This document shows, one piece after another, positions 1 to 64,000 of a stretch of 64,000 nt of DNA. This stretch comes from Cinnamomum chago (lineage: Eukaryota; Streptophyta; Magnoliopsida; Laurales; Lauraceae). The translations under genes were made by a program, and so were the position numbers. Each line of letters opens with the position of its first letter. Position 1 is the stretch's first letter. The stretch is from assembly GCA_038049695.1 (NCBI GenBank), contig CP142452.1, forward strand, positions 52,162,501-52,226,500, given 5' to 3'. A model generated the notes under the pieces. That model saw only the letters and a list, made by a program, of their open reading frames with translations. It was not told where the DNA came from and made no database searches.

Positions 1-2136
1 TTAAGTTTTATTACTTGTTCTTGATCGTTGGATACATGTTTGCACATATGCTTCTTGTCACATTTCTATTGATTTCGAAATGCATATGAATTGGTTTTTC
101 TCTCTTGTTAAATCTCTTGGAACTCTTGGGAATGTATGCATTTTATTTAGTCAAGTTTGTTCATATGGTTTTATAAGGAATGAGGTTGGATTGGCTATTC
201 ATGGTTATGTTATAAGTCACATTGACTTGAATTGATACTCATTTAAAGAGGTGTTTGAATTTAATTGTTCATTAGAGTTCAATGAGGATTTGAAGTGATT
301 TTGGAAGAGAAATGCAAGTGGATGGTTTGAATGTTATTAAGTTTTATGAGAAAATCTTAAGTTTTATTACTTGTTCTTGATCATTGGATACATGTTTGCA
401 CATATGCTTCTTGATTCATTTCTATTGATTTCGAAATGCATATGAATTGGTTTTTCTCTCTTGTTAAATCTCTTGGAACTCTTGGGAATGTATGCATTTT
501 ATTTAGTCAAGTTTGTTCATATGGTTTTATAAGGAATGAGGTTGGATTGGCTATTCATGGTTATGTTATAAGTCACATTGACTTGACTTGATACTCATTT
601 AAAGAGGTGTTTGAATTTAATTGTTCATTGGAGTTTAATGAGGATTTGAAGTGATTTTGGAAGAGAAATGCAAGTGGATGGTTTGAATGTTATTAAGTTT
701 TATGAGAAAATCTTAAGTTTTATTACTTGTTCTTGATCATTGGATACATGTTTGCACATATGCTTCTTGTCACATTTCTATTGATTTCGAAATGCATATG
801 AATTGGTTTTTCTCTCTTGTTAAATCTCTTGGAACTCTTGGGAATGTATGCATTTTATTTAGTCAAGTTTGTTCATATGGTTTTATAAGGAATGAGGTTG
901 GATTGGCTATTCATGGTTATGTTATAAGTCACATTGACTTGAATTGATACTCATTTAAAGAGGTGTTTGAATTTAATTGTTCATTGGAGTTTAATGAGGA
1001 TTTGAAGTGATTTTGGAAGAGAAATGCAAGTGGATGGTTTGAATGTTATTAAAACTTTATGAGAAAATCTTAAGTTTTATTACTTGTTCTTGATCATTGG
1101 ATACATGTTTGCACATATGCTTCTTGTCACATTTCTATTGATTTCGAAATGCATATGAATTGGTTTTTCTCTCTTGTTAAATCTCCTGGAACTCTTGGGA
1201 ATGTATGCATTTTATTTAGTCAAGTTTGTTCATATGGTTTTATAAGGAATGAGGTTGGATTGGCAATTCATGGTAATGTTATAAGTTACATTGACTTGAA
1301 TTGACACTCATTTAAAGTGGTGTTTGAATTTAATTCTTCATTGGAGTTTAATGAGGATTTGAAGTGATTTTGGAAGAGAAATGCAAGTGGATGGTTTGAA
1401 TGTTATTAAGTTTTATGAGAAAATCTTAAGTTTTATTACTTGTTCTTGATCGTTGGATACATGTTTGCACATATGCTTCTTGTCACATTTCTATTGATTT
1501 CGAAATGCATATGAATTGGTTTTTCTCTCTTGTTAAATCTCTTGGACTCTTGGGAATGTATGCATTTTATTTAGTCAAGTTTGTTCATATGGTTTTATAA
1601 GGAATGAGGTTGGATTGGCTATTCATGGTTATGTTATAAGTCACATTGAGTTGAATTGATACTCATTTAAAGAGGTGTTTGAATTTAATTGTTCATTGGA
1701 GTTTAATGAGGATTTGAAGTGATTTTGGACGAGAAATGCAAGTGGATGGTTTGAATGTTATTAAGTTTTATGAGAAAATCTTAAGTTTTATTACTTGTTC
1801 TTGATCGTTGGATACATGTTTGCACATATGCTTCTTGTCACATTTCTATTGATTTCGAAATGCATATGAATTGGTTTTTCTCTCTTGTTAAATCTCTTGG
1901 AACTCTTGGGAATGTGTGCATTTTATTTAGTCAAGTTTGTTCATATGGTTTTATATGGAATGAGGTTGGATTGGCTATTCATGGTTATGTTATAAGTCAC
2001 ATTGACTTGAATTGATACTCATTTAAAGAGGTGTTTGAATTTAATTGTTCATTGGAGTTTAATGAGGATTTGAAGTGATTTTGGAAGAGAAATGCAAGTG
2101 GATGGTTTGAATGTTATTAAGTTTTATGAGAAAATC

Positions 2137-2492
2137 TTAAGTTTTATTACTTGTTCTTGATCATTGGATACATGTTTGCACATATGCTTCTTGTCACATT
2201 TCTATTGATTTCGAAATGCATATGAATTGGTTTTTCTCTCTTGTTAAATCTCTTGGAACTCTTGGGAATGTATGCATTTTATTTAGTCAAGTTTGTTCAT
2301 ATGGTTTTATAAGGAATGAGGTTGGATTGGCTATTCATGGTTATGTTATAAGTCACATTGACTTGAATTGATACTCATTTAAAGAGGTGTTTGAATTTAA
2401 TTGTTCATTGGAGTTTAATGAGGATTTGAAGTGATTTTGGAAGAGAAATGCAAGTGGATGGTTTGAATGTTATTAAGTTTTATGAGAAAATC
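2137..2492 (+). repeat. Representative plain monomer (M7)
   Basis: This copy lacks the marked variants and serves as a reference; positions below are within the monomer. It begins TTAAGTTTTATT and ends ATGAGAAAATC. Hand count gives 356 bp, 107 G+C. Position 27 is A here and G in many other copies, which turns a CpG on or off. The only constant CpG is in TTCGAA at 74-79, which overlaps ATGCAT (80-85) and CATATG (83-88) to make a cluster of palindromic hexamers; CATATG also occurs at 45-50 and 162-167. All six frames are broken by stops, so the plain monomer has no coding capacity. An 8-bp word GTCACATT appears at about 57 and 216, a faint hint of internal duplication. Confidence 0.9.
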
Positions 2493-5400
2493 TTAAGTTT
2501 TATTACTTGTTCTTGATCGTTGGATACATGTTTGCACATATGCTTCTTGTCACATTTCTATTGATTTCGAAAAGCATATGAATTGGTTTTTCTCTCTTGT
2601 TAAATCTCTTGGAACTCTTGGGAATGTATGCATTTTATTTAGTCAAGTTTGTTCATATGGTTTTATAAGGAATGAGGTTGGATTGGCTATTCATAGTTAT
2701 GTTATAAGTCACATTGACTTGAATTGATACTCATTTAAAGAGGTGTTTGAATTTAATTGTTCATTGGAGTTTAATGAGGATTTGAAGTGATTTTGGACGA
2801 GAAATGCAAGTGGATGGTTTGAATGTTATTAAGTTTTATGAGAAAATCTTAAGTTTTATTACTTGTTCTTGATCGTTGGATACATGTTTGCACATATGCT
2901 TCTTGTCACATTTCTATTGATTTCGAAATGCATATGAATTGGTGTTTCTCTCTTGTTAAATCTCTTGGAACTCTTGGGAATGTGTGCATTTTATTTAGTC
3001 AAGTTTGTTCATATGGTTTTATAAGGAATGAGGTTGGATTGGCTATTCATGGTTATGTTATAAGTCACATTGACTTGAATTGATACTCATTTAAAGAGGT
3101 GTTTGAATTTAATTGTTCATTGGAGTTTAATGAGGATTTGAAGTGATTTTGGAAGAGAAATGCAAGTGGATGGTTTGAATGTTATTAAAACTTTATGAGA
3201 AACTCTTAAGTTTTATTACTTGTTCTTGATCATTGGATACATGTTTGCACATATGCTTCTTGTCACATTTCTATTGATTTCGAAATGCATATGAATTGGT
3301 TTTTCTCTCTTGTTAAATCTCTTGGAACTCTTGGGAATGTATGCATTTTATTTAGTCAAGTTTGTTCATATGGTTTTATAAGGAATGAGGTTGGATTGGC
3401 TATTCATGGTTATGTTATAAGTCACATTGACTTGAATTGATACTCATTTAAAGAGGTGTTTGAATTTAATTGTTCATTGGAGTTTAATGAGGATTTGAAG
3501 TGATTTTGGAAGAGAAATGCAAGTAGATGGTTTGAATGTTATTAAGTTTTATGAGAAAATCTTAAGTTTTATTACTTGTTCTTGATCATTGGATACATGT
3601 TTGCACATATGCTTCTTGTCACATTCCTATTGATTTCGAAATGCATATGAATTGGTTTTTCTCTCTTGTTAAATCTCTTGGAACTCTTGGGAATGTATGC
3701 ATTTTATTTAGTCAAGTTTGTTCATATGGTTTTATAAGGAATGAGGTTGGATTTGCTATTCATGGTTATGTTATAAGTCACATTGACTTGAATTGATACT
3801 CATTTAAAGAGGTGTTTGAATTTAATTGTTCATTGGAGTTTAATGAGGATTTGAAGTGATTTTGGAAGAGAAATGCAAGTTGATGGTTTGAATGTTATTA
3901 AGTTTTATGAGAAAATCTTAAGTTTTATTACTTGTTCTTGATCGTTGGATACATGTTTGCACATATGCTTCTTGTCACATTTCTATTGATTTCGAAATGC
4001 ATATGAATTGGTTTTTCTCTCTTGTTAAATCTCTTGGAACTCTTGGGAATGTATGCATTTTATTTAGTCAAGTTTGTTCATATGGTTTTATAAGGAATGA
4101 GGTTGGATTGGCTATTCATGGTTATGTTATAAGTCACATTGACTTGAATTGATACTCATTTAAAGAGGTGTTTGAATTTAATTGTTCATTGGAGTTTAAT
4201 GAGGATTTGAAGTGATTTTGGAAGAGAAATGCAAGTGGATGGTTTGAATGTTATTAAGTTTTATGAGAAAATCTTAAGTTTTATTACTTGTTCTTGATCG
4301 TTGGATACATGTTTGCACATATGCTTCTTGTCACATTTCTATTGATTTCGAAAAGCATATGAATTGGTTTTTCTCTCTTGTTAAATCTCTTGGAACTCTT
4401 GGGAATGTATGCATTTTATTTAGTCAAGTTTGTTCATATGGTTTTATAAGGAATGAGGTTGGATTGGCTATTCATAGTTATGTTATAAGTCACATTGACT
4501 TGAATTGATACTCATTTAAAGAGGTGTTTGAATTTAATTGTTCATTGGAGTTTAATGAGGATTTGAAGTGATTTTGGACGAGAAATGCAAGTGGATGGTT
4601 TGAATGTTATTAAGTTTTATGAGAAAATCTTAAGTTTTATTACTTGTTCTTGATCGTTGGATACATGTTTGCACATATGCTTCTTGTCACATTTCTATTG
4701 ATTTCGAAATGCATATGAATTGGTTTTTCTCTCTTGTTAAATCTCTTGGAACTCTTGGGAATGTGTGCATTTTATTTAGTCAAGTTTGTTCATATGGTTT
4801 TATAAGGAATGAGGTTAGATTGGCTATTCATGGTTATGTTATAAGTCACATTGACTTGAATTGATACTCATTTAAAGAGGTGTTTGAATTTAAGTGTTCA
4901 TTGGAGTTTAATGAGGATTTGAAGTGATTTTGGAAGAGAAATGCAAGTGGATGGTTTGAATGTTATTAAGTTTTATGAGAAAATCTTAAGTTTTATTACT
5001 TGTTCTTGATCATTGGATACATGTTTGCACATATGCTTCTTGTCACATTTCTATTGATTTCGAAATGCATATGAATTGGTTTTTCTCTCTTGTTAAATCT
5101 CTTGGAACTCTTGGGAATGTATGCATTTTATTTAGTCAAGTTTGTTCATATGGTTTTATAAGGAATGAGGTTGGATTGGCTATTCATGGTTATGTTATAA
5201 GTCACATTGAGTTGAATTGATACTCATTTAAAGAGGTGTTTGAATTTAATTGTTCATTGGAGTTTAATGAGGATTTGAAGTGATTTTGGACGAGAAATGC
5301 AAGTGGATGGTTTGAATGTTATTAAGTTTTATGAGAAAATCTTAAGTTTTATTACTTGTTCTTGATCGTTGGATACATGTTTGCACATATGCTTCTTGTC

Positions 5401-5697
5401 ACATTTCTATTGATTTCGAAATGCATATGAATTGGTTTTTCTCTCTTGTTAAATCTCTTGGAACTCTTGGGAATGTGTGCATTTTATTTAGTCAAGTTTG
5501 TTCATATGGTTTTATAAGGAATGAGGTTGGATTGGCTATTCATGGTTATGTTATAAGTCACATTGACTTGAATTGATACTCATTTAAAGAGGTGTTTGAA
5601 TTTAATTGTTCATTGGAGTTTAATGAGGATTTGAAGTGATTTTGGAAGAGAAATGCAAGTGGATGGTTTGAATGTTATTAAGTTTTATGAGAAAATC

Positions 5698-7122
5698 TTA
5701 AGTTTTATTACTTGTTCTTGATCATTGGATACATGTTTGCACATATGCTTCTTGTCACATTTCTATTGATTTCGAAATGCATATGAATTGGTTTTTCTCT
5801 CTTGTTAAATCTCTTGGAACTCTTGGGAATGTATGCATTTTATTTAGTCAAGTTTGTTCATATGGTTTTATAAGGAATGAGGTTGGATTGGCTATTCATG
5901 GTTATGTTATAAGTCACATTGACTTGAATTGATACTCATTTAAAGAGGTGTTTGAATTTAATTGTTCATTGGAGTTTAATGAGGATTTGAAGTGATTTTG
6001 GAAGAGAAATGCAAGTGGATGGTTTGAATGTTATTAAAACTTTATGAGAAAATCTTAAGTTTTATTACTTGTTCTTGATCATTGGATACATGTTTGCACA
6101 TATGCTTCTTGTCACATTTCTATTGATTTCGAAATGCATATGAATTGGTTTTTCTCTCTTGTTAAATCTCCTGGAACTCTTGGGAATGTATGCATTTTAT
6201 TTAGTCAAGTTTGTTCATATGGTTTTATAAGGAATGAGGTTGGATTGGCAATTCATGGTAATGTTATAAGTTACATTGACTTGAATTGACACTCATTTAA
6301 AGTGGTGTTTGAATTTAATTCTTCATTGGAGTTTAATGAGGATTTGAAGTGATTTTGGAAGAGAAATGCAAGTGGATGGTTTGAATGTTATTAAGTTTTA
6401 TGAGAAAATCTTAAGTTTTATTACTTGTTCTTGATCGTTGGATACATGTTTGCACATATGCTTCTTGTCACATTTCTATTGATTTTGAAATGCATATGAA
6501 TTGGTTTTTCTCTCTTGTTAAATCTCTTGGAACTCTTGGGAATGTATGCATTTTATTTAGTCAAGTTTGTTCATATGGTTTTATAAGGAATGAGGTTGGA
6601 TTGGCTATTCATGGTTATGTTATAAGTCACATTGAGTTGAATTGATACTCATTTAAAGAGGTGTTTGAATTTAATTGTTCATTGGAGTTTAATGAGGATT
6701 TGAAGTGATTTTGGACGAGAAATGCAAGTGGATGGTTTGAATGTTATTAAGTTTTATGAGAAAATCTTAAGTTTTATTACTTGTTCTTGATCGTTGGATA
6801 CATGTTTGCACATATGCTTCTTGTCACATTTCTATTGATTTCGAAATGCATATGAATTGGTTTTTCTCCCTTGTTAAATCTCTTGGAACTCTTGGGAATG
6901 TGTGCATTTTATTTAGTCAAGTTTGTTCATATGGTTTTTTAAGGAATGAGGTTGGATTGGCTATTCATGGTTATGTTATAAGTCACATTGACTTGAATTG
7001 ATACTCATTTAAAGAGGTGTTTGAATTTAATTGTTCATTGGAGTTTAATGAGGATTTGAAGTGATTTTGGAAGAGAAATGCAAGTGGATGGTTTGAATGT
7101 TATTAAGTTTTATGAGAAAATC
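5698..7122 (+). repeat. 4-monomer sub-repeat, copy 1 (M17-M20)
   Basis: This is a 1425-bp block inside the 25-monomer unit. The order is a monomer ending AAAACTTTATG, a CTCCTGG/GGTAATG monomer, a GGACGAG monomer and a GTGTGC monomer. The next block at 7123 has the same order and the same length. M3-M6 (713-2136) show a similar order, so the four-monomer motif occurs three times in the unit. Confidence 0.8.
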
Positions 7123-8547
7123 TTAAGTTTTATTACTTGTTCTTGATCATTGGATACATGTTTGCACATATGCTTCTTGTCACATTTCTATTGATTTCGA
7201 AATGCATATGAATTGGTTTTTCTCTCTTGTTAAATCTCTTGGAACTCTTGGGAATGTATGCATTTTATTTAGTCAAGTTTGTTCATATGGTTTTATAAGG
7301 AATGAGGTTGGATTGGCTATTCATGGTTATGTTATAAGTCACATTGACTTGAATTGATACTCATTTAAAGAGGTGTTTGAATTTAATTGTTCATTGGAGT
7401 TTAATGAGGATTTGAAGTGATTTTGGAAGAGAAATGCAAGTGGATGGTTTGAATGTTATTAAAACTTTATGAGAAAATCTTAAGTTTTATTACTTGTTCT
7501 TGATCATTGGATACATGTTTGCACATATGCTTCTTGTCAGATTTCTATTGATTTCGAAATGCATATGAATTGGTTTTTCTCTCTTGTTAAATCTCCTGGA
7601 ACTCTTGGGAATGTATGCATTTTATTTAGTCAAGTTTGTTCATATGGTTTTATAAGGAATGAGGTTGGATTGGCAATTCATGGTAATGTTATAAGTCACA
7701 TTGACTTGAATTGACACTCATTTAAAGTGGTGTTTGAATTTAATTGTTCATTGGAGTTTAATGAGGATTTGAAGTGATTTTGGAAGAGAAATGCAAGTGG
7801 ATGGTTTGAATGTTATTAAGTTTTATGAGAAAATCTTAAGTTTTATTACTTGTTCTTGATCGTTGGATACATGTTTGCACATATGCTTCTTGTCACATTT
7901 CTATTGATTTCGAAATGCATATGAATTGGTTTTTCTCTCTTGTAAAGTCTCTTGGAACTCTTGGGAATGTATGCATTTTATTTAGTCAAGTTTGTTCATA
8001 TGGTTTTATAAGGAATGAGGTTGGATTGGCTATTCATGGTTATGTTATAAGTCACATTGACTTGAATTGATACTCATTTAAAGAGGTGTTTGAATTTAAT
8101 TGTTCATTGGAGTTTAATGAGGATTTGAAGTGATTTTGGACGAGAAATGCAAGTGGATGGTTTGAATGTTATTAAGTTTTATGAGAAAATCTTAAGTTTT
8201 ATTACTTGTTCTTGATCGTTGGATACATGTTTGCACATATGCTTCTTGTCACATTTCTATTGATTTCGAAATGCATATGAATTGGTTTTTCTCTCTTGTT
8301 AAATCTCTTGGAACTCTTGGGAATGTGTGCATTTTATTTAGTCAAGTTTGTTCATATGGTTTTATAAGGAATGAGGTTAGATTGGCTATTCATGGTTATG
8401 TTATAAGTCACATTGACTTGAATTGATACTCATTTAAAGAGGTGTTTGAATTTAAGTGTTCATTGGAGTTTAATGAGGATTTGAAGTGATTTTGGAAGAG
8501 AAATGCAAGTGGATGGTTTGAATGTTATTAAGTTTTATGAGAAAATC
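7123..8547 (+). repeat. 4-monomer sub-repeat, copy 2 (M21-M24)
   Basis: Same length (1425 bp) and marker order as 5698-7122, but more diverged from it than most HOR copies here. M22 has GTCAGATTT and keeps GTCACA and TTGTTCA where M18 has GTTACA and TTCTTCA. M23 has GTAAAGTC. M24 carries GTTAGAT and TTTAAGTGTTC, which M14 also has. The mix suggests that copies have been reshuffled by exchange or conversion since duplication. Confidence 0.75.
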
Positions 8548-8903
8548 TTAAGTTTTATTACTTGTTCTTGATCATTGGATACATGTTTGCACATATGCTT
8601 CTTGTCACATTTCTATTGATTTCGAAATGCATATGAATTGGTTTTTCTCTCTTGTTAAATCTCTTGGAACTCTTGGGAATGTATGCATTTTATTTAGTCA
8701 AGTTTGTTCATATGGTTTTATAAGGAATGAGGTTGGATTGGCTATTCATGGTTATGTTATAAGTCACATTGACTTGAATTGATACTCATTTAAAGAGGTG
8801 TTTGAATTTAATTGTTCATTGGAGTTTAATGAGGATTTGAAGTGATTTTGGACGAGAAATGCAAGTGGATGGTTTGAATGTTATTAAGTTTTATGAGAAA
8901 ATC

Positions 8904-11900
8904 TTAAGTTTTATTACTTGCTCTTGATCGTTGGATACATGTTTGCACATATGCTTCTTGTCACATTTCTATTGATTTCGAAATGCATATGAATTGGTTT
9001 TTCTCTCTTGTTAAATCTCTTGGAACTCTTGGGAATGTATGCATTTTATTTAGTCAAGTTTGTTCATATGGTTTTATAAGGAATGAGGTTGGATTGGCTA
9101 TTAATGGTTATGTTATAAGTCACATTGACTTGAATTGATACTCATTTAAAGAGGTGTTTGAATTTAATTGTTCATTAGAGTTCAATGAGGATTTGAAGTG
9201 ATTTTGGAAGAGAAATGCAAGTGGATGGTTTGAATGTTATTAAGTTTTATGAGAAAATCTTAAGTTTTATTACTTGTTCTTGATCATTGGATACATGTTT
9301 GCACATATGCTTCTTGATTCATTTCTATTGATTTCGAAATGCATATGAATTGGTTTTTCTCTCTTGTTAAATCTCTTGGAACTCTTGGGAATGTATGCAT
9401 TTTATTTAGTCAAGTTTGTTCATATGGTTTTATAAGGAATGAGGTTGGATTGGCTATTCATGGTTATGTTATAAGTCACATTGACTTGACTTGATACTCA
9501 TTTAAAGAGGTGTTTGAATTTAATTGTTCATTGGAGTTTAATGAGGATTTGAAGTGATTTTGGAAGAGAAATGCAAGTGGATGGTTTGAATGTTATTAAG
9601 TTTTATGAGAAAATCTTAAGTTTTATTACTTGTTCTTGATCATTGGATACATGTTTGCACATATGCTTCTTGTCACATTTCTATTGATTTCGAAATGCAT
9701 ATGAATTGGTTTTTCTCTCTTGTTAAATCTCTTGGAACTCTTGGGAATGTATGCATTTTATTTAGTCAAGTTTGTTCATATGGTTTTATAAGGAATGAGG
9801 TTGGATTGGCTATTCATGGTTATGTTATAAGTCACATTGACTTGAATTGATACTCATTTAAAGAGGTGTTTGAATTTAATTGTTCATTGGAGTTTAATGA
9901 GGATTTGAAGTGATTTTGGAAGAGAAATGCAAGTGGATGGTTTGAATGTTATTAAAACTTTATGAGAAAATCTTAAGTTTTATTACTTGTTCTTGATCAT
10001 TGGATACATGTTTGCACATATGCTTCTTGTCACATTTCTATTGATTTCGAAATGCATATGAATTGGTTTTTCTCTCTTGTTAAATCTCCTGGAACTCTTG
10101 GGAATGTATGCATTTTATTTAGTCAAGTTTGTTCATATGGTTTTATAAGGAATGAGGTTGGATTGGCAATTCATGGTAATGTTATAAGTTACATTGACTT
10201 GAATTGACACTCATTTAAAGTGGTGTTTGAATTTAATTCTTCATTGGAGTTTAATGAGGATTTGAAGTGATTTTGGAAGAGAAATGCAAGTGGATGGTTT
10301 GAATGTTATTAAGTTTTATGAGAAAATCTTAAGTTTTATTACTTGTTCTTGATCGTTGGATACATGTTTGCACATATGCTTCTTGTCACATTTCTATTGA
10401 TTTCGAAATGCATATGAATTGGTTTTTCTCTCTTGTTAAATCTCTTGGACTCTTGGGAATGTATGCATTTTATTTAGTCAAGTTTGTTCATATGGTTTTA
10501 TAAGGAATGAGGTTGGATTGGCTATTCATGGTTATGTTATAAGTCACATTGAGTTGAATTGATACTCATTTAAAGAGGTGTTTGAATTTAATTGTTCATT
10601 GGAGTTTAATGAGGATTTGAAGTGATTTTGGACGAGAAATGCAAGTGGATGGTTTGAATGTTATTAAGTTTTATGAGAAAATCTTAAGTTTTATTACTTG
10701 TTCTTGATCGTTGGATACATGTTTGCACATATGCTTCTTGTCACATTTCTATTGATTTCGAAATGCATATGAATTGGTTTTTCTCTCTTGTTAAATCTCT
10801 TGGAACTCTTGGGAATGTGTGCATTTTATTTAGTCAAGTTTGTTCATATGGTTTTATATGGAATGAGGTTGGATTGGCTATTCATGGTTATGTTATAAGT
10901 CACATTGACTTGAATTGATACTCATTTAAAGAGGTGTTTGAATTTAATTGTTCATTGGAGTTTAATGAGGATTTGAAGTGATTTTGGAAGAGAAATGCAA
11001 GTGGATGGTTTGAATGTTATTAAGTTTTATGAGAAAATCTTAAGTTTTATTACTTGTTCTTGATCATTGGATACATGTTTGCACATATGCTTCTTGTCAC
11101 ATTTCTATTGATTTCGAAATGCATATGAATTGGTTTTTCTCTCTTGTTAAATCTCTTGGAACTCTTGGGAATGTATGCATTTTATTTAGTCAAGTTTGTT
11201 CATATGGTTTTATAAGGAATGAGGTTGGATTGGCTATTCATGGTTATGTTATAAGTCACATTGACTTGAATTGATACTCATTTAAAGAGGTGTTTGAATT
11301 TAATTGTTCATTGGAGTTTAATGAGGATTTGAAGTGATTTTGGAAGAGAAATGCAAGTGGATGGTTTGAATGTTATTAAGTTTTATGAGAAAATCTTAAG
11401 TTTTATTACTTGTTCTTGATCGTTGGATACATGTTTGCACATATGCTTCTTGTCACATTTCTATTGATTTCGAAAAGCATATGAATTGGTTTTTCTCTCT
11501 TGTTAAATCTCTTGGAACTCTTGGGAATGTATGCATTTTATTTAGTCAAGTTTGTTCATATGGTTTTATAAGGAATGAGGTTGGATTGGCTATTCATAGT
11601 TATGTTATAAGTCACATTGACTTGAATTGATACTCATTTAAAGAGGTGTTTGAATTTAATTGTTCATTGGAGTTTAATGAGGATTTGAAGTGATTTTGGA
11701 CGAGAAATGCAAGTGGATGGTTTGAATGTTATTAAGTTTTATGAGAAAATCTTAAGTTTTATTACTTGTTCTTGATCGTTGGATACATGTTTGCACATAT
11801 GCTTCTTGTCACATTTCTATTGATTTCGAAATGCATATGAATTGGTGTTTCTCTCTTGTTAAATCTCTTGGAACTCTTGGGAATGTGTGCATTTTATTTA

Positions 11901-13532
11901 GTCAAGTTTGTTCATATGGTTTTATAAGGAATGAGGTTGGATTGGCTATTCATGGTTATGTTATAAGTCACATTGACTTGAATTGATACTCATTTAAAGA
12001 GGTGTTTGAATTTAATTGTTCATTGGAGTTTAATGAGGATTTGAAGTGATTTTGGAAGAGAAATGCAAGTGGATGGTTTGAATGTTATTAAAACTTTATG
12101 AGAAACTCTTAAGTTTTATTACTTGTTCTTGATCATTGGATACATGTTTGCACATATGCTTCTTGTCACATTTCTATTGATTTCGAAATGCATATGAATT
12201 GGTTTTTCTCTCTTGTTAAATCTCTTGGAACTCTTGGGAATGTATGCATTTTATTTAGTCAAGTTTGTTCATATGGTTTTATAAGGAATGAGGTTGGATT
12301 GGCTATTCATGGTTATGTTATAAGTCACATTGACTTGAATTGATACTCATTTAAAGAGGTGTTTGAATTTAATTGTTCATTGGAGTTTAATGAGGATTTG
12401 AAGTGATTTTGGAAGAGAAATGCAAGTAGATGGTTTGAATGTTATTAAGTTTTATGAGAAAATCTTAAGTTTTATTACTTGTTCTTGATCATTGGATACA
12501 TGTTTGCACATATGCTTCTTGTCACATTCCTATTGATTTCGAAATGCATATGAATTGGTTTTTCTCTCTTGTTAAATCTCTTGGAACTCTTGGGAATGTA
12601 TGCATTTTATTTAGTCAAGTTTGTTCATATGGTTTTATAAGGAATGAGGTTGGATTTGCTATTCATGGTTATGTTATAAGTCACATTGACTTGAATTGAT
12701 ACTCATTTAAAGAGGTGTTTGAATTTAATTGTTCATTGGAGTTTAATGAGGATTTGAAGTGATTTTGGAAGAGAAATGCAAGTTGATGGTTTGAATGTTA
12801 TTAAGTTTTATGAGAAAATCTTAAGTTTTATTACTTGTTCTTGATCGTTGGATACATGTTTGCACATATGCTTCTTGTCACATTTCTATTGATTTCGAAA
12901 TGCATATGAATTGGTTTTTCTCTCTTGTTAAATCTCTTGGAACTCTTGGGAATGTATGCATTTTATTTAGTCAAGTTTGTTCATATGGTTTTATAAGGAA
13001 TGAGGTTGGATTGGCTATTCATGGTTATGTTATAAGTCACATTGACTTGAATTGATACTCATTTAAAGAGGTGTTTGAATTTAATTGTTCATTGGAGTTT
13101 AATGAGGATTTGAAGTGATTTTGGAAGAGAAATGCAAGTGGATGGTTTGAATGTTATTAAGTTTTATGAGAAAATCTTAAGTTTTATTACTTGTTCTTGA
13201 TCGTTGGATACATGTTTGCACATATGCTTCTTGTCACATTTCTATTGATTTCGAAAAGCATATGAATTGGTTTTTCTCTCTTGTTAAATCTCTTGGAACT
13301 CTTGGGAATGTATGCATTTTATTTAGTCAAGTTTGTTCATATGGTTTTATAAGGAATGAGGTTGGATTGGCTATTCATAGTTATGTTATAAGTCACATTG
13401 ACTTGAATTGATACTCATTTAAAGAGGTGTTTGAATTTAATTGTTCATTGGAGTTTAATGAGGATTTGAAGTGATTTTGGACGAGAAATGCAAGTGGATG
13501 GTTTGAATGTTATTAAGTTTTATGAGAAAATC
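8904..13532 (+). repeat. 25-monomer higher-order repeat, partial copy 2 (M26-M38)
   Basis: M26-M38 repeat M1-M13 marker for marker at an offset of 8903 bases, including private variants such as CTTGATTCATTT (M2 and M27), the 1-bp shorter CTTGGACTC (M5 and M30) and CATTCCTA (M11 and M36). Differences seen are few, for example CTCTTG for TTCTTG and ATTAATGG for ATTCATGG in M26. Similarity ends with M38: M14 has GTTAGAT and TTTAAGTGTTC, whereas M39 at 13533 has GTTTTTTC and GACAAATG. The copy is therefore cut at about 13.5 kb and joined to another variant set. Confidence 0.9.
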
Positions 13533-46659: not shown

Positions 46660-47372
46660 TTAAGTTTTATTACTTGTTCTTGATCATTGGATACATGTTT
46701 GCACATATGCTTCTTGTCACATTTCTATTGATTTTGGAAATGCATATGAATTGGTTTTTCTCTCTTGTTAAATCTCTTGGAACTCTTGGGAATGTATGCA
46801 TTTTATTTAGTCAAGTTTGTTCATATGGTTTTATAAGGAATGAGGTTGGATTGGCTATTCATAGTTATGTTATAAGTCACATTGACTTGAATTGATACTC
46901 ATTTAAAGAGGTGTTTGAATTTAATTGTTCATTGGAGTTTAATGAGGATTTGAAGTGATTTTGGAAGACAAATGCAAGTGGATGGTTTGAATGTTATTAA
47001 GTTTTATGAGAAAATCTTAAGTTTTATTACTTGTTCTTGATCATTGGATACATGTTTGCACATATGCTTCTTGTCACATTTCTATTGATTTCGAAATGCA
47101 TATGAATTGGTTTTTCTCTCTTGTTAAATCTCTTGGAACTCTTGGGAATGTATGCATTTTATTTAGTCAAGTTTGTTCATATGGTTTTATAAGGAATGAG
47201 GTTGGATTGGCTATTCATGGTTATGTTATAAGTCACATTGACTTGAATTGATACTCATTTAAAGAGGTGTTTGAATTTAATTGTTCATTAGAGTTTAATG
47301 AGGATTTGAAGTGATTTTGGAAGAGAAATGCAGGTGGATGGTTTGAATGTTATTAAGTTTTATGAGAAAATC

Positions 47373-52360: not shown

Positions 52361-55300
52361 TTAAGTTTTATTACTTGTTCTTGATCATTGGATACATGTT
52401 TGCACATATGCTTCTTGTCACATTTCTATTGATTTTGGAAATGCATATGAATTGGTTTTTCTCTCTTGTTAAATCTCTTGGAACTCTTGGGAATGTATGC
52501 ATTTTATTTAGTCAAGTTTGTTCATATGGTTTTATAAGGAATGAGGTTGGATTGGCTATTCATAGTTATGTTATAAGTCACATTGACTTGAATTGATACT
52601 CATTTAAAGAGGTGTTTGAATTTAATTGTTCATTGGAGTTTAATGAGGATTTGAAGTGATTTTGGAAGACAAATGCAAGTGGATGGTTTGAATGTTATTA
52701 AGTTTTATGAGAAAATCTTAAGTTTTATTACTTGTTCTTGATCATTGGATACATGTTTGCACATATGCTTCTTGTCACATTTCTATTGATTTCGAAATGC
52801 ATATGAATTGGTTTTTCTCTCTTGTTAAATCTCTTGGAACTCTTGGGAATGTATGCATTTTATTTAGTCAAGTTTGTTCATATGGTTTTATAAGGAATGA
52901 GGTTGGATTGGCTATTCATGGTTATGTTATAAGTCACATTGACTTGAATTGATACTCATTTAAAGAGGTGTTTGAATTTAATTGTTCATTGGAGTTTAAT
53001 GAGGATTTGAAGTGATTTTGGAAGAGAAATGCAAGTGGATGGTTTGAATGTTATTAAAACTTTATGAGAAACTCTTAAGTTTTATTACTTGTTCTTGATC
53101 ATTGGATACATGTTTGCACATATGCTTCTTGTCACATTTCTATTGATTTCGAAATGCATATGAATTGGTTTTTCTCTCTTGTTAAATCTCTTGGAACTCT
53201 TGGGAATGTATGCATTTTATTTAGTCAAGTTTGTTCATATGGTTTTATAAGGGATGAGGTTGGATTGGCTATTCATGGTTATGTTATAAGTCACATTGAC
53301 TTGAATTGATACTCATTTAAAGAGGTGTTTGAATTTAATTGTTCATTGGAGTTTAATGAGGATTTGAAGTGATTTTGGAAGACAAATGCAGGTGGATGGT
53401 TTGAATGTTATTAAGTTTTATGAGAAAATCTTAAGTTTTATTACTTGTTCTTGATCATTGGATACATGTTCGCACATATGCTTCTTGTCACATTTCTATT
53501 GATTTCGAAATGCATATGAATTGGTTTTTCTCTCTTGTTAAATCTCTTGGAACTCTTGGGAATGTATGCATTTTATTTAGTCAAGTTTGTTCATATGGTT
53601 TTATAAGGAATGAGGTTGGATTGGCTATTCATGGTTATGTTATAAGTTACATTGACTTGAATTGATACTCATTTAAAGAGGTGTTTGAATTTAATTGTTC
53701 ATTAGAGTTCAATGAGGATTTGAAGTGATTTTGGAAGAGAAATGCAAGTGGATGGTTTGAATGTTATTAAGTTTTATGAGAAAATCTTAAGTTTTATTAC
53801 TTGTTCTTGATCATTGGATACATGTTTGCACATATGCATCTTGTCACTTTTCTATTGATTTCGAAATGCATATGAATTGGTTTTTCTCTCTTGTTAAATC
53901 TCTTGGAACTCTTGGGAATGTATGCATTTTATTTAGTCAAGTTTGTTCATATGGTTTTATAAGGAATGAGGTTGGATTGGCTATTCATGGTTATGTTATA
54001 AGTCACATTGACTTGAATTGATACTCATTTAAAGAGGTGTTTGAATTTAATTGTTCATTAGAGTTTAATGAGGATTTGAAGTGATTTTGGAAGAGAAATG
54101 CAAGTGGATGGTTTGAATGTTATTAAGTTTTATGAGAAAATCTTAAGTTTTATTACTTGTTCTTGATCATTGGATACATGTTTGCACATATGCTTCTTGT
54201 CACATTTCTATTGATTTCGAAATGCATATGAATTGGTTTTTCTATCTTGTTAAATCTCTTGGAACTCTTGGGAATGTATGCATTTTATTTAGTCAAGTTT
54301 GTTCATATGGTTTTATAAGGAATGAGGTTGGATTGGCTATTCATGGTTATGTTATAAGTCACATTGACTTGAATTGATACTCATTTAAAGAGGTGTTTGA
54401 ATTTAATTGTTCATTGGAGTTTAATGAGGATTTGAAGTGATTTTGGAAGAGAAATGCAAGTGGATGGTTTGAATGTTATTAAAACTTTATGAGAAACTCT
54501 TAAGTTTTATTACTTGTTCTTGATCATTGGATACATGTTTGCACATATGCATCTTGTCACTTTTCTATTGATTTCGAAATGCATATGAATTGGTTTTTCT
54601 CTCTTGTTAAATCTCTTGGAACTCTTGGGAATGTATGCATTTTATTTAGTCAAGTTTGTTCATATGGTTTTATAAGGAATGAGGTTGGATTGGCTATTCA
54701 TGGTTATGTTATAAGTCACATTGACTTGAAATGAAACTCATTTGAAGAGGTGTTTGAATTTAATTGTTCATTGGAGTTTAATGAGGATTTGAAGTGATTT
54801 TGGAAGAGAAATGCAAGTGGATGGTTTGAATGTTATTAAAACTTTATGAGAAACTCTTAAGTTTTATTACTTGTTCTTGATCGTTGGATACATGTTTGCA
54901 CATATGCTTCTTGTCACATTTCTATTGATTTCGAAATGCATATGAATTGGTTTTTCTCTCTTGTTAAATCTCTTGGAACTCTTGGGAATGTATGCATTTT
55001 ATTTAGTCAAGTTTGTTCATATGGTTTTATAAGGAATGAGGTTGGATTGGCTATTCATAGTTATGTTATAAGTCACATTGACTTGAATTGATACTCATTT
55101 AAAGAGGTGTTTGAATTTAATTGTTCATTGGAGTTTAATGAGGATTTGAAGTGATTTTGGAAGACAAATGCAAGTGGATGGTTTGAATGTTATTAAGTTT
55201 TATGAGAAAATCTTAAGTTTTATTACTTGTTCTTGATCATTGGATACATGTTTGCACATATGCTTCTTGTCACATTTCTATTGATTTCGAAATGCATATG

Positions 55301-57704
55301 AATTGGTTTTTCTCTCTTGTTAAATCTCTTGGAACTCTTGGGAATGTATGCATTTTATTTAGTCAAGTTTGTTCATATGGTTTTATAAGGAATGAGGTTG
55401 GATTGGCTATTCATGGTTATGTTATAAGTCACATTGACTTGAATTGATACTCATTTAAAGAGGTGTTTGAATTTAATTGTTCATTGGAGTTTAATGAGGA
55501 TTTGAAGTGATTTTGGAAGAGAAATGCAGGTGGATGGTTTGAATGTTATTAAGTTTTATGAGAAAATCTTAAGTTTTATTACTTGTTCTTGATCATTGGA
55601 TACATGTTTGCACATATGCTTCTTGTCACATTTCTATTGATTTCGAAATGCATATGAATTGGTTTTTCTCTCTTGTTAAATCTCTTGGAACTCTTGGGAA
55701 TGTATGCATTTTATTTAGTCAAGTTTGTTCATATGGTTTTATAAGGAATGAGGTTGGATTGGCTATTCATGGTTATGTTATAAGTCACATTGACTTGAAT
55801 TGATACTCATTTAAAGAGGTGTTTGAATTTAATTGTTCATTGGAGTTTAATGAGGATTTGAAGTGATTTTGGAAGAGAAATGCAAGTGGATGGTTTGAAT
55901 GTTATTAAGTTTTATGAGAAAATCTTAAGTTTTATTACTTGTTCTTGATCGTTGGATACATGTTTGCACATATGCTTCTTGTCACATTTCTATTGATTTC
56001 GAAAAGCATATGAATTGGTTTTTCTCTCTTGTTAAATCTCTTGGAACTCTTGGGAATGTATGCATTTTATTTAGTCAAGTTTGTTCATATGGTTTTATAA
56101 GGAATGAGGTTGGATTGGCTATTCATAGTTATGTTATAAGTCACATTGACTTGAATTGATACTCATTTAAAGAGGTGTTTGAATTTAATTGTTCATTGGA
56201 GTTTAATGAGGATTTGAAGTGATTTTGGAAGAGAAATGCAAGTGGATGGTTTGAATGTTAATAAGTTTTATGAGAAAATCTTAAGTTTTATTACTTGTTC
56301 TTGATCATTGGATACATGTTTGCACATATGCTTCTTGTCACATTTCTATTGATTTCGAAATGCATATGAATTGGTTTTTCTCTCTTGTTAAATCTCTTGG
56401 AACTCTTGGGAATGTATGCATTTTATTTAGTCAAGTTTGTTCATATGGTTTTATAAGGAATGAGGTTGGATTGGCTATTCATGGTTATGTTATAAGTCAC
56501 ATTGACTTGAATTGATACTCATTTAAAGAGGTGTTTGAATTTAATTGTTCATTGGAGTTTAATGAGGATTTGAAGTGATTTTGGAAGAGAAATGCAAGTG
56601 GATGGTTTGAATGTTATTAAGTTTTATGAGAAAATCTTAAGTTTTATTACTTGTTCTTGATCGTTGGATACATGTTTGCACATATGCTTCTTGTCACATT
56701 TCTATTGATTTCGAAATGCATATGAATTGGTTTTTCTCTCTTGTTAAATCTCTTGGAACTCTTGGGAATGTATGCATTTTATTTAGTCAAGTTTGTTCAT
56801 ATGGTTTTATAAGGAATGAGGTTGGATTGGCTATTCATGGTTATGTTATAAGTCACATTGACTTGAATTGATACTCATTTAAAGAGGTGTTTGAATTTAA
56901 TTGTTCATTGGAGTTTAATGAGGATTTGAAGTGATTTTGGAAGAGAAATGCAGGTGGATGGTTTGAATGTTATTAAGTTTTATGAGAAAATCTTAAGTTT
57001 TATTACTTGTTCTTGATCATTGGATACATGTTTGCACATATGCTTCTTGTCACATTTCTATTGATTTCGAAATGCATATGAATTGGTTTTTCTCTCTTGT
57101 TAAATCTCTTGGAACTCTTGGGAATGTATGCATTTTATTTAGTCAAGTTTGTTCATATGGTTTTATAAGGAATGAGGTTGGATTGGCTATTCATGGTTAT
57201 GTTATAAGTCACATTGACTTGAAATGAAACTCATTTGAAGAGGTGTTTGAATTTAATTGTTCATTGGAGTTTAATGAGGATTTGAAGTGATTTTGGAAGA
57301 GAAATGCAAGTTGATGGTTTGAATGTTATTAAGTTTTATGAGAAAATCTTAAGTTTTATTACTTGTTCTTGATCGTTGGATACATGTTTGCACATATGCT
57401 TCTTGTCACATTTCTATTGATTTCGAAATGCATATGAATTGGTTTTTCTCTCTTGTTAAATCTCTTGGAACTCTTGGGAATGTATGCATTTTATTTAGTC
57501 AAGTTTGTTCATATGGTTTTATAAGGAATGAGGTTGGATTGGCTATTCATGGTTATGTTATAAGTCACATTGACTTGAATTGATACTCATTTAAAGAGGT
57601 GTTTGAATTTAATTGTTCATTGGAGTTTAATGAGGATTTGAAGTGATTTTGGAAGAGAAATGCAAGTGGATGGTTTGAATGTTATTAAGTTTTATGAGAA
57701 AATC
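52361..57704 (+). repeat. 15-monomer unit (M148-M162)
   Basis: Order: TTTTGGAAATGC; monomer ending GAGAAACTC; GGGATGAGG; ATGTTCGC; GCATCTTG; CTATCTTG; GCATCTTG/AAATGAAAC; G-at-27 with CATAGTT; GCAGGTGG; plain; AAAAGCATATG ending TTAATAAG; plain; GCAGGTGG; AAATGAAAC; plain. Length 5344 bp. Thirteen of its monomers have a counterpart in order in the next block, including the rare TTAATAAG (M158 and M172). M155-M156 differ from M169-M170. Confidence 0.85.
54857..55212 (+). repeat. Mosaic monomer M155
   Basis: The front has G at 27 and a plain middle, as in the AAGTAGATGG type that normally follows GCATCTTG/AAATGAAAC (M144, M169). The back has CATAGTT and GACAAATGCAAGTGGATGG, as in AAAAGCATATG or TTTTGGAAATGC monomers. 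It is followed by a GCAGGTGG monomer, the usual follower of the TTTTGGAAATGC type. The back half and its neighbour thus appear to come from another place in the array. Confidence 0.65.
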
Positions 57705-60700
57705 TTAAGTTTTATTACTTGTTCTTGATCATTGGATACATGTTTGCACATATGCTTCTTGTCACATTTCTATTGATTTTGGAAATGCATATGAATTGGT
57801 TTTTCTCTCTTGTTAAATCTCTTGGAACTCTTGGGAATGTATGCATTTTATTTAGTCAAGTTTGTTCATATGGTTTTATAAGGAATGAGGTTGGATTGGC
57901 TATTCATAGTTATGTTATAAGTCACATTGACTTGAATTGATACTCATTTAAAGAGGTGTTTGAATTTAATTGTTCATTGGAGTTTAATGAGGATTTGAAG
58001 TGATTTTGGAAGAGAAATGCAAGTGGATGGTTTGAATGTTATTAAGTTTTATGAGAAAATCTTAAGCTTTATTACTTGTTCTTGATCATTGGATACATGT
58101 TTGCACATATGCTTCTTGTCACATTTCTATTGATTTCGAAATGCATATGAATTGGTTTTTCTCTCTTGTTAAATCTCTTGGAACTCTTGGGAATGTATGC
58201 ATTTTATTTAGTCAAGTTTGTTCATATGGTTTTATAAGGGATGAGGTTGGATTGGCTATTCATGGTTATGTTATAAGTCACATTGACTTGAATTGATACT
58301 CATTTAAAGAGGTGTTTGAATTTAATTGTTCATTGGAGTTTAATGAGGATTTGAAGTGATTTTGGAAGACAAATGCAGGTGGATGGTTTGAATGTTATTA
58401 AGTTTTATGAGAAAATCTTAAGTTTTATTACTTGTTCTTGATCATTGGATACATGTTCGCACATATGCTTCTTGTCACATTTCTATTGATTTCGAAATGC
58501 ATATGAATTGGTTTTTCTCTCTTGTTAAATCTCTTGGAACTCTTGGGAATGTATGCATTTTATTTAGTCAAGTTTGTTCATATGGTTTTATAAGGAATGA
58601 GGTTGGATTGGCTATTCATGGTTATGTTATAAGTTACATTGACTTGAATTGATACTCATTTAAAGAGGTGTTTGAATTTAATTGTTCATTAGAGTTCAAT
58701 GAGGATTTGAAGTGATTTTGGAAGAGAAATGCAAGTGGATGGTTTGAATGTTATTAAGTTTTATGAGAAAATCTTAAGTTTTATTACTTGTTCTTGATCA
58801 TTGGATACATGTTTGCACATATGCATCTTGTCACTTTTCTATTGATTTCGAAATGCATATGAATTGGTTTTTCTCTCTTGTTAAATCTCTTGGAACTCTT
58901 GGGAATGTATGCATTTTATTTAGTCAAGTTTGTTCATATGGTTTTATAAGGAATGAGGTTGGATTGGCTATTCATGGTTATGTTATAAGTCACATTGACT
59001 TGAATTGATACTCATTTAAAGAGGTGTTTGAATTTAATTGTTCATTAGAGTTTAATGAGGATTTGAAGTGATTTTGGAAGAGAAATGCAAGTGGATGGTT
59101 TGAATGTTATTAAGTTTTATGAGAAAATCTTAAGTTTTATTACTTGTTCTTGATCATTGGATACATGTTTGCACATATGCTTCTTGTCACATTTCTATTG
59201 ATTTCGAAATGCATATGAATTGGTTTTTCTATCTTGTTAAATCTCTTGGAACTCTTGGGAATGTATGCATTTTATTTAGTCAAGTTTGTTCATATGGTTT
59301 TATAAGGAATGAGGTTGGATTGGCTATTCATGGTTATGTTATAAGTCACATTGACTTGAATTGATACTCATTTAAAGAGGTGTTTGAATTTAATTGTTCA
59401 TTGGAGTTTAATGAGGATTTGAAGTGATTTTGGAAGAGAAATGCAAGTGGATGGTTTGAATGTTATTAAAACTTTATGAGAAACTCTTAAGTTTTATTAC
59501 TTGTTCTTGATCATTGGATACATGTTTGCACATATGCATCTTGTCACTTTTCTATTGATTTCGAAATGCATATGAATTGGTTTTTCTCTCTTGTTAAATC
59601 TCTTGGAACTCTTGGGAATGTATGCATTTTATTTAGTCAAGTTTGTTCATATGGTTTTATAAGGAATGAGGTTGGATTTGCTATTCATGGTTATGTTATA
59701 AGTCACATTGACTTGAAATGAAACTCATTTGAAGAGGTGTTTGAATTTAATTGTTCATTGGAGTTTAATGAGGATTTGAAGTGATTTTGGAAGAGAAATG
59801 CAAGTGGATGGTTTGAATGTTATTAAAACTTTATGAGAAACTCTTAAGTTTTATTACTTGTTCTTGATCGTTGGATACATGTTTGCACATATGCTTCTTG
59901 TCACATTTCTATTGATTTCGAAATGCATATGAATTGGTTTTTCTCTCTTGTTAAATCTCTTGGAACTCTTGGGAATGTATGCATTTTATTTAGTCAAGTT
60001 TGTTCATATGGTTTTATAAGGAATGAGGTTGGATTGGCTATTCATGGTTATGTTATAAGTCACATTGACTTGAATTGATACTCATTTAAAGAGGTGTTTG
60101 AATTTAATTGTTCATTGGAGTTTAATGAGGATTTGAAGTGATTTTGGAAGACAAATGCAAGTAGATGGTTTGAATGTTATTAAGTTTTATGAGAAAATCT
60201 TAAGTTTTATTACTTGTTCTTGATCATTGGATACATGTTTGTACATATGCTTCTTGTCACATTTCTATTGATTTCGAAATGCATATGAATTGGTTTTTCT
60301 CTCTTGTTAAATCTCTTGGAACTCTTGGGAATGTATGCATTTTATTTAGTCAAGTTTGTTCATATGGTTATATAAGGAATGAGGTTAGATTGGCTATTCA
60401 TGGTTATGTTATAAGTCACATTGACTTGAATTGATACTCATTTAAAGAGGTGTTTGAATTTAATTGTTCATTGGAGTTTAATGAGGATTTGAAGTGATTT
60501 TGGAAGAGAAATGCAGGTGGATGGTTTGAATGTTATTAAGTTTTATGAGAAAATCTTAAGTTTTATTACTTGTTCTTGATCATTGGATACATGTTTGCAC
60601 ATATGCTTCTTGTCACATTTCTATTGATTTCGAAATGCATATGAATTGGTTTTTCTCTCTTGTTAAATCTCTTGGAACTCTTGGGAATGTATGCATTTTA

Positions 60701-62691
60701 TTTAGTCAAGTTTGTTCATATGGTTTTATAAGGAATGAGGTTGGATTGGCTATTCATGGTTATGTTATAAGTCACATTGACTTGAATTGATACTCATTTA
60801 AAGAGGTGTTTGAATTTAATTGTTCATTGGAGTTTAATGAGGATTTGAAGTGATTTTGGAAGAGAAATGCAAGTGGATGGTTTGAATGTTATTAAGTTTT
60901 ATGAGAAAATCTTAAGTTTTATTACTTGTTCTTGATCGTTGGATACATGTTTGCACATATGCTTCTTGTCACATTTCTTTTGATTTCGAAAAGCATATGA
61001 ATTGGTTTTTCTCTCTTGTTAAATCTCTTGGAACTCTTGGGAATGTATGCATTTTATTTAGTCAAGTTTGTTCATATGGTTTTATAAGGAATGAGGTTGG
61101 ATTGGCTATTCATAGTTATGTTATAAGTCACATTGACTTGAATTGATACTCATTTAAAGAGGTGTTTGAATTTAATTGTTCATTGGAGTTTAATGAGGAT
61201 TTGAAGTGATTTTGGAAGAGAAATGCAAGTGGATGGTTTGAATGTTAATAAGTTTTATGAGAAAATCTTAAGTTTTATTACTTGTTCTTGATCATTGGAT
61301 ACATGTTTGCACATATGCTTCTTGTCACATTTCTATTGATTTCGAAATGCATATGAATTGGTTTTTCTCTCTTGTTAAATCTCTTGGAACTCTTGGGAAT
61401 GTATGCATTTTATTTAGTCAAGTTTGTTCATATGGTTTTATAAGGAATGAGGTTGGATTGGCTATTCATGGTTATGTTATAAGTCACATTGACTTGAATT
61501 GATACTCATTTAAAGAGGTGTTTGAATTTAATTGTTCATTGGAGTTTAATGAGGATTTGAAGTGATTTTGGAAGAGAAATGCAAGTGGATGGTTTGAATG
61601 TTATTAAGTTTTATGAGAAAATCTTAAGTTTTATTACTTGTTCTTGATCGTTGGATACATGTTTGCACATATGCTTCTTGTCACATTTCTATTGATTTCG
61701 AAATGCATATGAATTGGTTTTTCTCTCTTGTTAAATCTCTTGGAACTCTTGGGAATGTATGCATTTTATTTAGTCAAGTTTGTTCATATGGTTTTATAAG
61801 GAATGAGGTTGGATTGGCTATTCATGGTTATGTTATAAGTCACATTGACTTGAATTGATACTCATTTAAAGAGGTGTTTGAATTTAATTGTTCATTGGAG
61901 TTTAATGAGGATTTGAAGTGATTTTGGAAGAGAAATGCAGGTGGATGGTTTGAATGTTATTAAGTTTTATGAGAAAATCTTAAGTTTTATTACTTGTTCT
62001 TGATCATTGGATACATGTTTGCACATATGCTTCTTGTCACATTTCTATTGATTTCGAAATGCATATGAATTGGTTTTTCTCTCTTGTTAAATCTCTTGGA
62101 ACTCTTGGGAATGTATGCATTTTATTTAGTCAAGTTTGTTCATATGGTTTTATAAGGAATGAGGTTGGATTGGCTATTCATGGTTATGTTATAAGTCACA
62201 TTGACTTGAAATGAAACTCATTTGAAGAGGTGTTTGAATTTAATTGTTCATTGGAGTTTAATGAGGATTTGAAGTGATTTTGGAAGAGAAATGCAAGTTG
62301 ATGGTTTGAATGTTATTAAGTTTTATGAGAAAATCTTAAGTTTTATTACTTGTTCTTGATCGTTGGATACATGTTTGCACATATGCTTCTTGTCACATTT
62401 CTATTGATTTCGAAATGCATATGAATTGGTTTTTCTCTCTTGTTAAATCTCTTGGAACTCTTGGGAATGTATGCATTTTATTTAGTCAAGTTTGTTCATA
62501 TGGTTTTATAAGGAATGAGGTTGGATTGGCTATTCATGGTTATGTTATAAGTCACATTGACTTGAATTGATACTCATTTAAAGAGGTGTTTGAATTTAAT
62601 TGTTCATTGGAGTTTAATGAGGATTTGAAGTGATTTTGGAAGAGAAATGCAAGTGGATGGTTTGAATGTTATTAAGTTTTATGAGAAAATC
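57705..62691 (+). repeat. 14-monomer unit (M163-M176)
   Basis: A 4987-bp counterpart of 52361-57704, one monomer shorter. M163 has the TTTTGGAAATGC front of M148 and a GGAAGAG back like M149, so it may be a fusion of the two. M169-M170 carry AAGTAGATGG, GTTTGTACAT and TTATATAAGG, as in the 8.9-kb unit, where the 15-monomer copy has other variants. M164 starts CTTAAGCTTT and M172 has TTTCTTTTGATT, both seen once. Confidence 0.85.
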
Positions 62692-64000
62692 TTAAGTTTT
62701 ATTACTTGTTCTTGATCATTGGATACATGTTTGCACATATGCTTCTTGTCACATTTCTATTGATTTTGGAAATGCATATGAATTGGTTTTTCTCTCTTGT
62801 TAAATCTCTTGGAACTCTTGGGAATGTATGCATTTTATTTAGTCAAGTTTGTTCATATGGTTTTATAAGGAATGAGGTTGGATTGGCTATTCATAGTTAT
62901 GTTATAAGTCACATTGACTTGAATTGATACTCATTTAAAGAGGTGTTTGAATTTAATTGTTCATTGGAGTTTAATGAGGATTTGAAGTGATTTTGGAAGA
63001 CAAATGCAAGTGGATGGTTTGAATGTTATTAAGTTTTATGAGAAAATCTTAAGTTTTATTACTTGTTCTTGATCATTGGATACATGTTTGCACATATGCT
63101 TCTTGTCACATTTCTATTGATTTCGAAATGCATATGAATTGGTTTTTCTCTCTTGTTAAATCTCTTGGAACTCTTGGGAATGTATGCATTTTATTTAGTC
63201 AAGTTTGTTCATATGGTTTTATAAGGAATGAGGTTGGATTGGCTATTCATGGTTATGTTATAAGTCACATTGACTTGAATTGATACTCATTTAAAGAGGT
63301 GTTTGAATTTAATTGTTCATTGGAGTTTAATGAGGATTTGAAGTGATTTTGGAAGAGAAATGCAGGTGGATGGTTTGAATGTTATTAAGTTTTATGAGAA
63401 AATCTTAAGTTTTATTACTTGTTCTTGATCATTGGATATATGTTTGCACATATGCTTCTTGTCACATTTCTATTGATTTCGAAATGCATATGAATTGGTT
63501 TTTCTCTCTTGTTAAATCTCTTGGAACTCTTGGGAATGTATGCATTTTATTTAGTCAAGTTTGTTCATAAGGTTTGATAAGGAATGAGGTTGGATTGGCT
63601 ATTCATGGTTATGTTATAAGTCACATTGAATTGAATTGATACTCATTTAAAGAGGTGTTTCAATTTAATTGTTCATTGGAGTTTAATGAGGATTTGAAGT
63701 GATTTTGGAAGAGAAATGCAAGTGGATGGTTTGAATGTTATTAAAACTTTATGAGATAATCTTAAGTTTTATTACTTGTTCTTGATCATTGGATACATGT
63801 TCGCACATATGCTTCTTGTCACATTTCTATTGATTTCGAAATGCATATGAATTGGTTTTTCTCTCTTGTTAAATCTCTTGGAACTCTTGGGAATGTATGC
63901 ATTTTATTTAGTCAAGTTTGTTCATATGGTTTTATAAGGAATGAGGTTGGATTGGCTATTCATGGTTATGTTATAAGTTACATTGACTTGAATTGATACT
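62692..64000 (+). repeat. Start of a further unit, cut by the window end (M177-M180)
   Basis: TTTTGGAAATGC, GCAGGTGG, GGATATATG with CATAAGGTTTGAT and GTTTCAAT, then ATGTTCGC. This is the opening order of the 9-monomer HOR and of HOR B. M179 has a private GAATTGAATTG. M180 begins at 63762 and is truncated by the window after 239 bp. Confidence 0.85.

Follow-up and report, generated by a model that had tools for sequence, protein, structure and literature searches.

Shifting higher-order periods in a 356-bp satellite array and their possible derivation from a 14-monomer unit

The stretch of DNA considered here, a window of 64,000 nucleotides from contig CP142452.1 (GenBank assembly GCA_038049695.1, positions 52,162,501 to 52,226,500 of the forward strand), is a tandem satellite array with a 356-bp monomer, and its monomers form higher-order repeats (HORs) of several different lengths. 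An original prediction had proposed several tiers of HOR with a changing period in one array, and this holds in the main; what does not hold in the form proposed is a first period of 25, a period of 15/14, and the independence of the tiers from one another. We read the array as a non-coding satellite of plant type, probably centromeric or pericentromeric, which turns over by exchange or slippage between in-register copies and which, from monomer 39 (m39) onward, descends from a tandem 14-monomer unit that has since decayed. We would put the probability of this reading at roughly three in four.

The array and its blocks

Tandem Repeats Finder reports a single row for positions 1-64000, with a period of 356, 179.7 copies and 98% matches. 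The array lies on the + strand, as do all features described below, reaches both ends of the window (1..64000), and comprises 179 full monomers and one partial monomer of 239 bp. When cut at the box TTAAGTTTTATT, the full monomers measure 355 to 357 bp and are oriented head to tail throughout, and no inverted 20-base copies were found in the window. The box itself occurs exactly 179 times; a 180th occurrence, at 58062, carries one changed base and so leaves a spacing of 713 bp between exact boxes. The 179 full monomers represent 61 distinct sequences, and any two differ on average at 6.3 sites, or 17.7 per kb.

The monomers were grouped by average-linkage clustering, the array was written as a string of class letters, and shuffles of this string served as the null. 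Thresholds of 1.5, 2.5 and 3.5 differences gave 35, 27 and 22 classes, the last of which agrees with the roughly 20 variants that had been predicted. With 35 classes the string contains 72 matched runs of at least three monomers, the longest of 18, as against a mean of 2.1 runs (maximum 9) and a longest run of at most 6 in 200 shuffles, so the variants do not follow one another in random order. Exact sequences (threshold 0.5, 61 classes) still give 34 runs, with a longest of 12 and a shuffle mean of 0.24. At the threshold of 2.5 the contrast with shuffles is smaller in run number (82 against a mean of 19 and a maximum of 47), but not in run length (18 against 6). Cutting, clustering and labelling in this way, as the original prediction had suggested, brings out blocks at lags of 7, 7, 9, 5, 25, 24, 14 and 4.

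Most of these blocks lie from m39 onward. The string TUGVTWX stands twice at m41-54 (14245..19232, lag 7), with all seven classes of m41-47 and m48-54 in agreement and 3 site differences between the copies, and YZaGHRS stands twice directly after it at m55-68 (19233..24218), where m55-61 and m62-68 again agree in 7 of 7 classes, here with 2 site differences. Running across the border of the two is m48-61 (16739..21725), an uninterrupted copy of TUGVTWXYZaGHRS, the 14-mer that we propose as ancestral. Further along stand three copies of VTWXYZaGb at lag 9 (m72-98, 25287..34906), in which m72-80, m81-89 and m90-98 match in 9 of 9 classes both times and the copy pairs differ at 1, 2 and 3 sites, and two copies of bSTUG at lag 5 (m98-107, 34551..38110; m98-102 and m103-107 agree in 5 of 5, with 1 site difference). 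The largest unit, YZaGbSTUGbSTUGVTcdXefghef, is a 25-mer in its first copy (m94-118, 33126..42030) and a 24-mer, lacking one U monomer, in its second (m119-142, 42031..50579), and a third, partial copy occupies m143-147 (50580-52360); at lag 25, m94-105 and m119-130 agree in 12 of 12 classes, and at lag 24, m107-123 and m131-147 agree in 17 of 17. Nested within this unit is a four-monomer repeat, Xefg/hef (m112-118, 39537..42030), whose paired stretches Xef and hef, at m112-114/116-118 and again at m136-138/140-142, share two of three classes, h being X with one base changed. The predicted 15/14 corresponds to the distances between X monomers (m136, 151 and 165). Its 14-spacing stands as a pair of imperfect modules at m151-164 and m165-178 (53431..63404; 11 of 13 classes, 8 site differences), whereas the 15-spacing covers a run of only three monomers.

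The beginning of the array is different. The 12-monomer block BCDEFGHIGJGH (m2-13, 357..4629) recurs at lag 25 as m27-38 (9260..13532), and the identity between the two places extends over 4,587 bases (201-4787 and 9104-13690). Between them lies KLFCDMNCOPKLQ (m14-26, 4630..9259), which is not repeated after the second copy; the predicted first 25 is therefore a match over 12 of 25 monomers and no full tandem 25-mer. Since only C, G and H of the 17 classes in m1-38 (1-13532) reappear later, this part is a separate domain, with its border at m38/39, and its 12-monomer duplication would be young enough to show zero differences.

Relative ages and a hidden 14-monomer unit

Copies of a block differ at 0 to 2.8 sites per kb, much less than the roughly 18 (17.7) that separate monomers in general, and the adjacent units of 7, 7, 9, 5 and 25/24 stand in tandem, the first 25 only partially so; in both respects the blocks behave as HORs. 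These divergences rest on 0 to 8 sites each, so that none but the extremes can be ranked safely. At the low end are the first 25 (the 12-monomer pair), with 0 differences per kb, and the 25/24 pair, whose 12-monomer part has 0 and whose 17-monomer part has 0.83, all five of its differing sites falling within 17 of 29 monomers (chance probability 0.07). The 9-mer copies (0.31, 0.62 and 0.94), the 5-mer copies (0.56) and the two 7-mers (1.20 and 0.80) follow, together with traces of the 14-mer at lags 28 and 21 (1.02 and 1.28), and beyond them come the modules at 14-spacing (1.73) and the 4-mer, which shows 2.81 in each of its two copies. Each copy of the 25/24 unit carries the 4-mer with equally many differences, located in the same monomers, which makes the 4-mer probably older than the 25/24 duplication. 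With this case of nesting and the low divergence of block copies, the predicted legibility of the array as a series of duplications is supported.

That these blocks need not be separate in origin is suggested by greedy removal of tandem duplications from the class string, largest first. The removals come in the order 9, 9, 7, 7, then a tandem 14 (GHRSTUGVTWXYZa) whose copies are non-adjacent in the raw string, and then 5. When m39-179 is aligned to an endless cycle of this 14-mer, 98 of the 141 monomers can be placed, as against a mean of 46.1 and a maximum of 53 in 100 shuffles, and 83 of 140 transitions agree with the cycle (shuffle mean 10.1, maximum 21). The original prediction had taken the tiers as separate orders of re-used variants; given the alignment of m39-179 to one 14-monomer cycle, we read the 9-, 5- and 25/24-mers instead as decay products of the 14-mer.

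The direction of change, from the 14-mer to the later blocks, is proposed because three monomer classes look, from their letters, like splice products of 14-mer monomers. Class b, the first of whose eight monomers is m80 (28138..28492), is matched without mismatch in its class consensus by the 5' part of H (or i) and the 3' part of R (or V). The neighbouring classes c and d, at m110-111 (38824..39536) and copied again at m134-135, are fitted by the 5' part of W with the 3' part of Z, the sole mismatch-free pair, and by the 5' part of a with the 3' part of W, the sole pair with one mismatch. The order that such splices require is the order found: Z is followed by a in 8 of 8 cases, T precedes W in 6 of 6, and X comes next after all 5 W monomers whose successor is complete. 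If W were instead derived from c and d, two mismatches would be left over, and that Z and a stand in this order within c-d would be a coincidence. Perfect two-part fits exist for 9 of the 35 classes, as against a mean of 2.6 and a maximum of 6 in 60 site permutations, with several of the nine being trivial, in classes that lie one base from another.

Several observations weigh against this account. The tandem 14 appears only once the 7-mers have been removed, and the divergences of the 7-mers and of the 14-mer traces make the two inseparable in age. Over m76-179, a part that did not serve to read the cycle, 48 of 103 transitions agree (shuffle mean 6.3, maximum 15), but this is no blind test, as the cycle was chosen with the whole string in view; a 25-mer cycle taken from the later half is, as expected, the better fit there, with 77 of 103. 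The 14-mer also fails to cover m1-38, where 4 of 37 transitions agree. As for the splices, two-part models bring a mean gain of 1.54, close to the 1.42 of the null (maximum 1.86), and a systematic test of neighbours failed: 2 of 9 classes pass, fewer than the mean of 3.7 in shuffled orders, of which 959 in 1000 score at least as high. That test favours frequent classes in shuffles, and c and d, being each other's neighbours, are unscorable in it. An earlier form of the same test gave 3 of 10 classes against 4.0. The splice reading consists of single cases chosen after inspection.

Mechanism and competing explanations

Under the decay reading, exchange or replication slippage between in-register copies (unequal sister exchange or break-induced replication) would duplicate or delete a block of monomers at each event. 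From m39 the array would have begun as TUGVTWXYZaGHRS in tandem and later decayed: each half of the 14-mer would have been duplicated once to give 7 and 7; H and R may have been joined as b through the loss of one monomer; the loss of four monomers would have produced the 9-mer, subsequently tripled; the block with b could have given the 5-mer; and a module with gained inserts would have been duplicated as 25/24. In its fullest form, this account would have a 50-kb stretch preserve the successive stages in the decay of a single 14-mer, with daughters of at most three copies, no dominating period, and splice monomers marking the sites of exchange. We hold this fullest form tentatively, at a little short of even odds. 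If it is true, blocks arise and break too fast for any one period to take over, and the splice monomers place the points of exchange with a precision of between a few dozen and a few hundred bases.

Plain exchange was simulated as random in-register duplications and deletions, with breakpoints within monomers and point mutation, in 36 runs under 6 settings. The simulated arrays carry many coexisting, short-lived short periods, and at the three nearest settings the mean number of distinct monomers ran from 40 to 64 (61 in the array, on exact sequences), that of differences from 4.8 to 10.6 (6.3 in the array), that of runs from 36 to 64 (34), and the mean longest run from 16 to 20 (12). None of the six settings fits all four measures together. 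Because simulated exchange yields such many-period arrays, ordinary exchange or a replication-based equivalent suffices for a pattern of this type, and a special cause beyond exchange is unneeded.

Which kind of event made the blocks is a narrower question. Read as W / Z-a / W, the c-d pair amounts to two switches with one monomer gained, as if a W had been interrupted by a one-monomer copy of the 3' part of Z and the 5' part of a in one event. The blocks as a whole might then stem from template switching, in break-induced replication or synthesis-dependent repair, and not from reciprocal exchange, and break-induced replication has been invoked for complex nested HORs in human arrays, according to the available text of a review (PMC8997354). 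The same text reports conflicts with the replication model, plain exchange already accounts for the overall pattern in the simulations, and by the order of classes two plain deletions in a tandem 14-mer, from W to Z and from a to W, would give the same pair. Either a single template switch or a pair of deletions could account for c-d, and template switching as the general source of the blocks is possible, if on the doubtful side.

That the tiers are independent HORs, which arose separately from a pool of some 20 variants as the original prediction implied, would suit m1-38, with its own 12-monomer block and only C, G and H in common with the rest; the fit of a single 14-cycle to m39-179 makes it unlikely. 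About equally unlikely, in our estimate, is that the order of blocks is wholly or partly a product of assembly. Identical copies of 4,587 and 4,506 bp, which end at 4787, 13690, 37629 and 46534, are the sort of place where assemblers can err, yet differences are present in 12 of 14 block pairs that were compared. Direct repeats reach at most 4,587 bp when exact and 6,147 bp when up to five mismatches are allowed, the latter still within ordinary long-read reach, so reads above some 10 kb could bridge them.

The monomer and known satellites

The consensus monomer has a G+C content of 30% (107/356) and contains one CG, where shuffles lead one to expect 6.8 (P 0.004), and no CHG, again against 6.8 (P 0.0003); the lack of CAG/CTG is unlikely under a first-order model too (P 0.0007). 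In the whole window, variants carry 38 CAG/CTG and 260 CG. Joint depletion of CG and CHG fits cytosine methylation of the plant type, and we take it as a hint of a methylated plant genome, one consensus being one observation. The commonest polymorphism, at consensus position 27, divides the monomers into 58 with CG, 119 with CA and 2 with CC, the pattern to be expected if a methylated CG were decaying.

Other features of the monomer may be recorded here. The + strand is skewed over 1-64000 (T 27397 against A 17284; G 13288 against C 6031). An 11-base box, TTAAGTTTTAT, stands twice per repeat, at consensus 1-11 and 337-347, so that across a monomer boundary the two start positions are separated by 20 bp, and 30 of 179 monomers share a three-change variant of the inner copy. 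Consensus 72-81 is a ten-base palindrome, ATTTCGAAAT, the site of the only CG of the consensus, and consensus position 76 within it is T instead of C in 11 of 179 monomers. A dimeric origin from two 178-bp halves is unsupported (score 16.5; mean 10.2 and maximum 19 in 20 shuffles), and strong single-strand folding of a monomer is rejected, an equally good fold being reached by 62 of 100 shuffles (z 0.34).

Searches for relatives gave no accepted match. Twelve exact fragments, reverse complements included, found none in the paper text searched, one exact 32-base fragment none in viral contigs, one exact 24-base fragment none in prokaryotic genome contigs, three monomers (1-1069) none by blastn in plasmids or phages, and positions 1-8000, 8,000 of the 64,000 bases, none in Rfam. 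The matches listed for a 356-bp satellite in the literature included AcepSAT356, Drosophila 1.688 and a maize retrotransposon RNA, none of which was accepted. AcepSAT356 of Allium cepa shares the monomer length of 356, but the part of its description available gives a G+C of 46.6-47.2% (PMC6387171) against 30% here. The 356-bp member of the Drosophila 1.688 family, as far as its available account goes (PMC8122249), was not taken as a match, and the CHG depletion would argue against a fly. TrR350 of Trifolium repens is closer in G+C (32% in the text available, PMC5996420) and, judging by its name, in length; that text reports 24-nt submotifs, and by this comparison of descriptions 24 lies outside the eight strongest self-match lags of our consensus.

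The closest parallels to the block structure are found elsewhere, and the contrast that the original prediction drew with satellites of no or one HOR period was overstated: mixed and nested HORs occur in human alpha satellite, and simulated exchange gives them too. On human chromosome 15, the available part of one study describes cascading alpha-satellite HORs with 429 copies of a 15-mer, sub-periods of 4, 7 and 11 inside it, and variant units next to canonical ones (PMC11050224). Classes are likewise re-used within a unit here, T and G each occurring twice in TUGVTWXYZaGHRS at m48-61; unlike that system, the window has one to three copies per unit, a 356-bp monomer and monomers that diverge by about 2%. 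For human chromosome 8, the available text of the review cited above (PMC8997354) describes HORs of 4, 7 and 8 monomers interspersed with the 11-mer that gave rise to them, a close parallel to the derivation of 7, 9 and 5 from a 14-mer proposed here, although monomer and host differ and CENP-A is mapped there. Among plants, the block lengths and distances of poplar Palv156, and of Arabidopsis CEN178 as cited with it, are given as distributions in the text available (PMC12046899); by description these resemble our array in having HOR blocks without a single period, and differ from it in monomer length.

Nested and shifting HOR periods are thus already known, and a neutral exchange model yields them, while what seems less usual, beside those human arrays, is that no unit here exceeds three copies in 64 kb. 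The value of the present array is that of a tidy worked example, in which the ages of blocks, their nesting and the candidate splice monomers make much of the order of events legible in 64 kb, and which could help to distinguish exchange from template switching. Set beside the human and plant arrays, it is an ordinary type of satellite turnover, unusually legible here.

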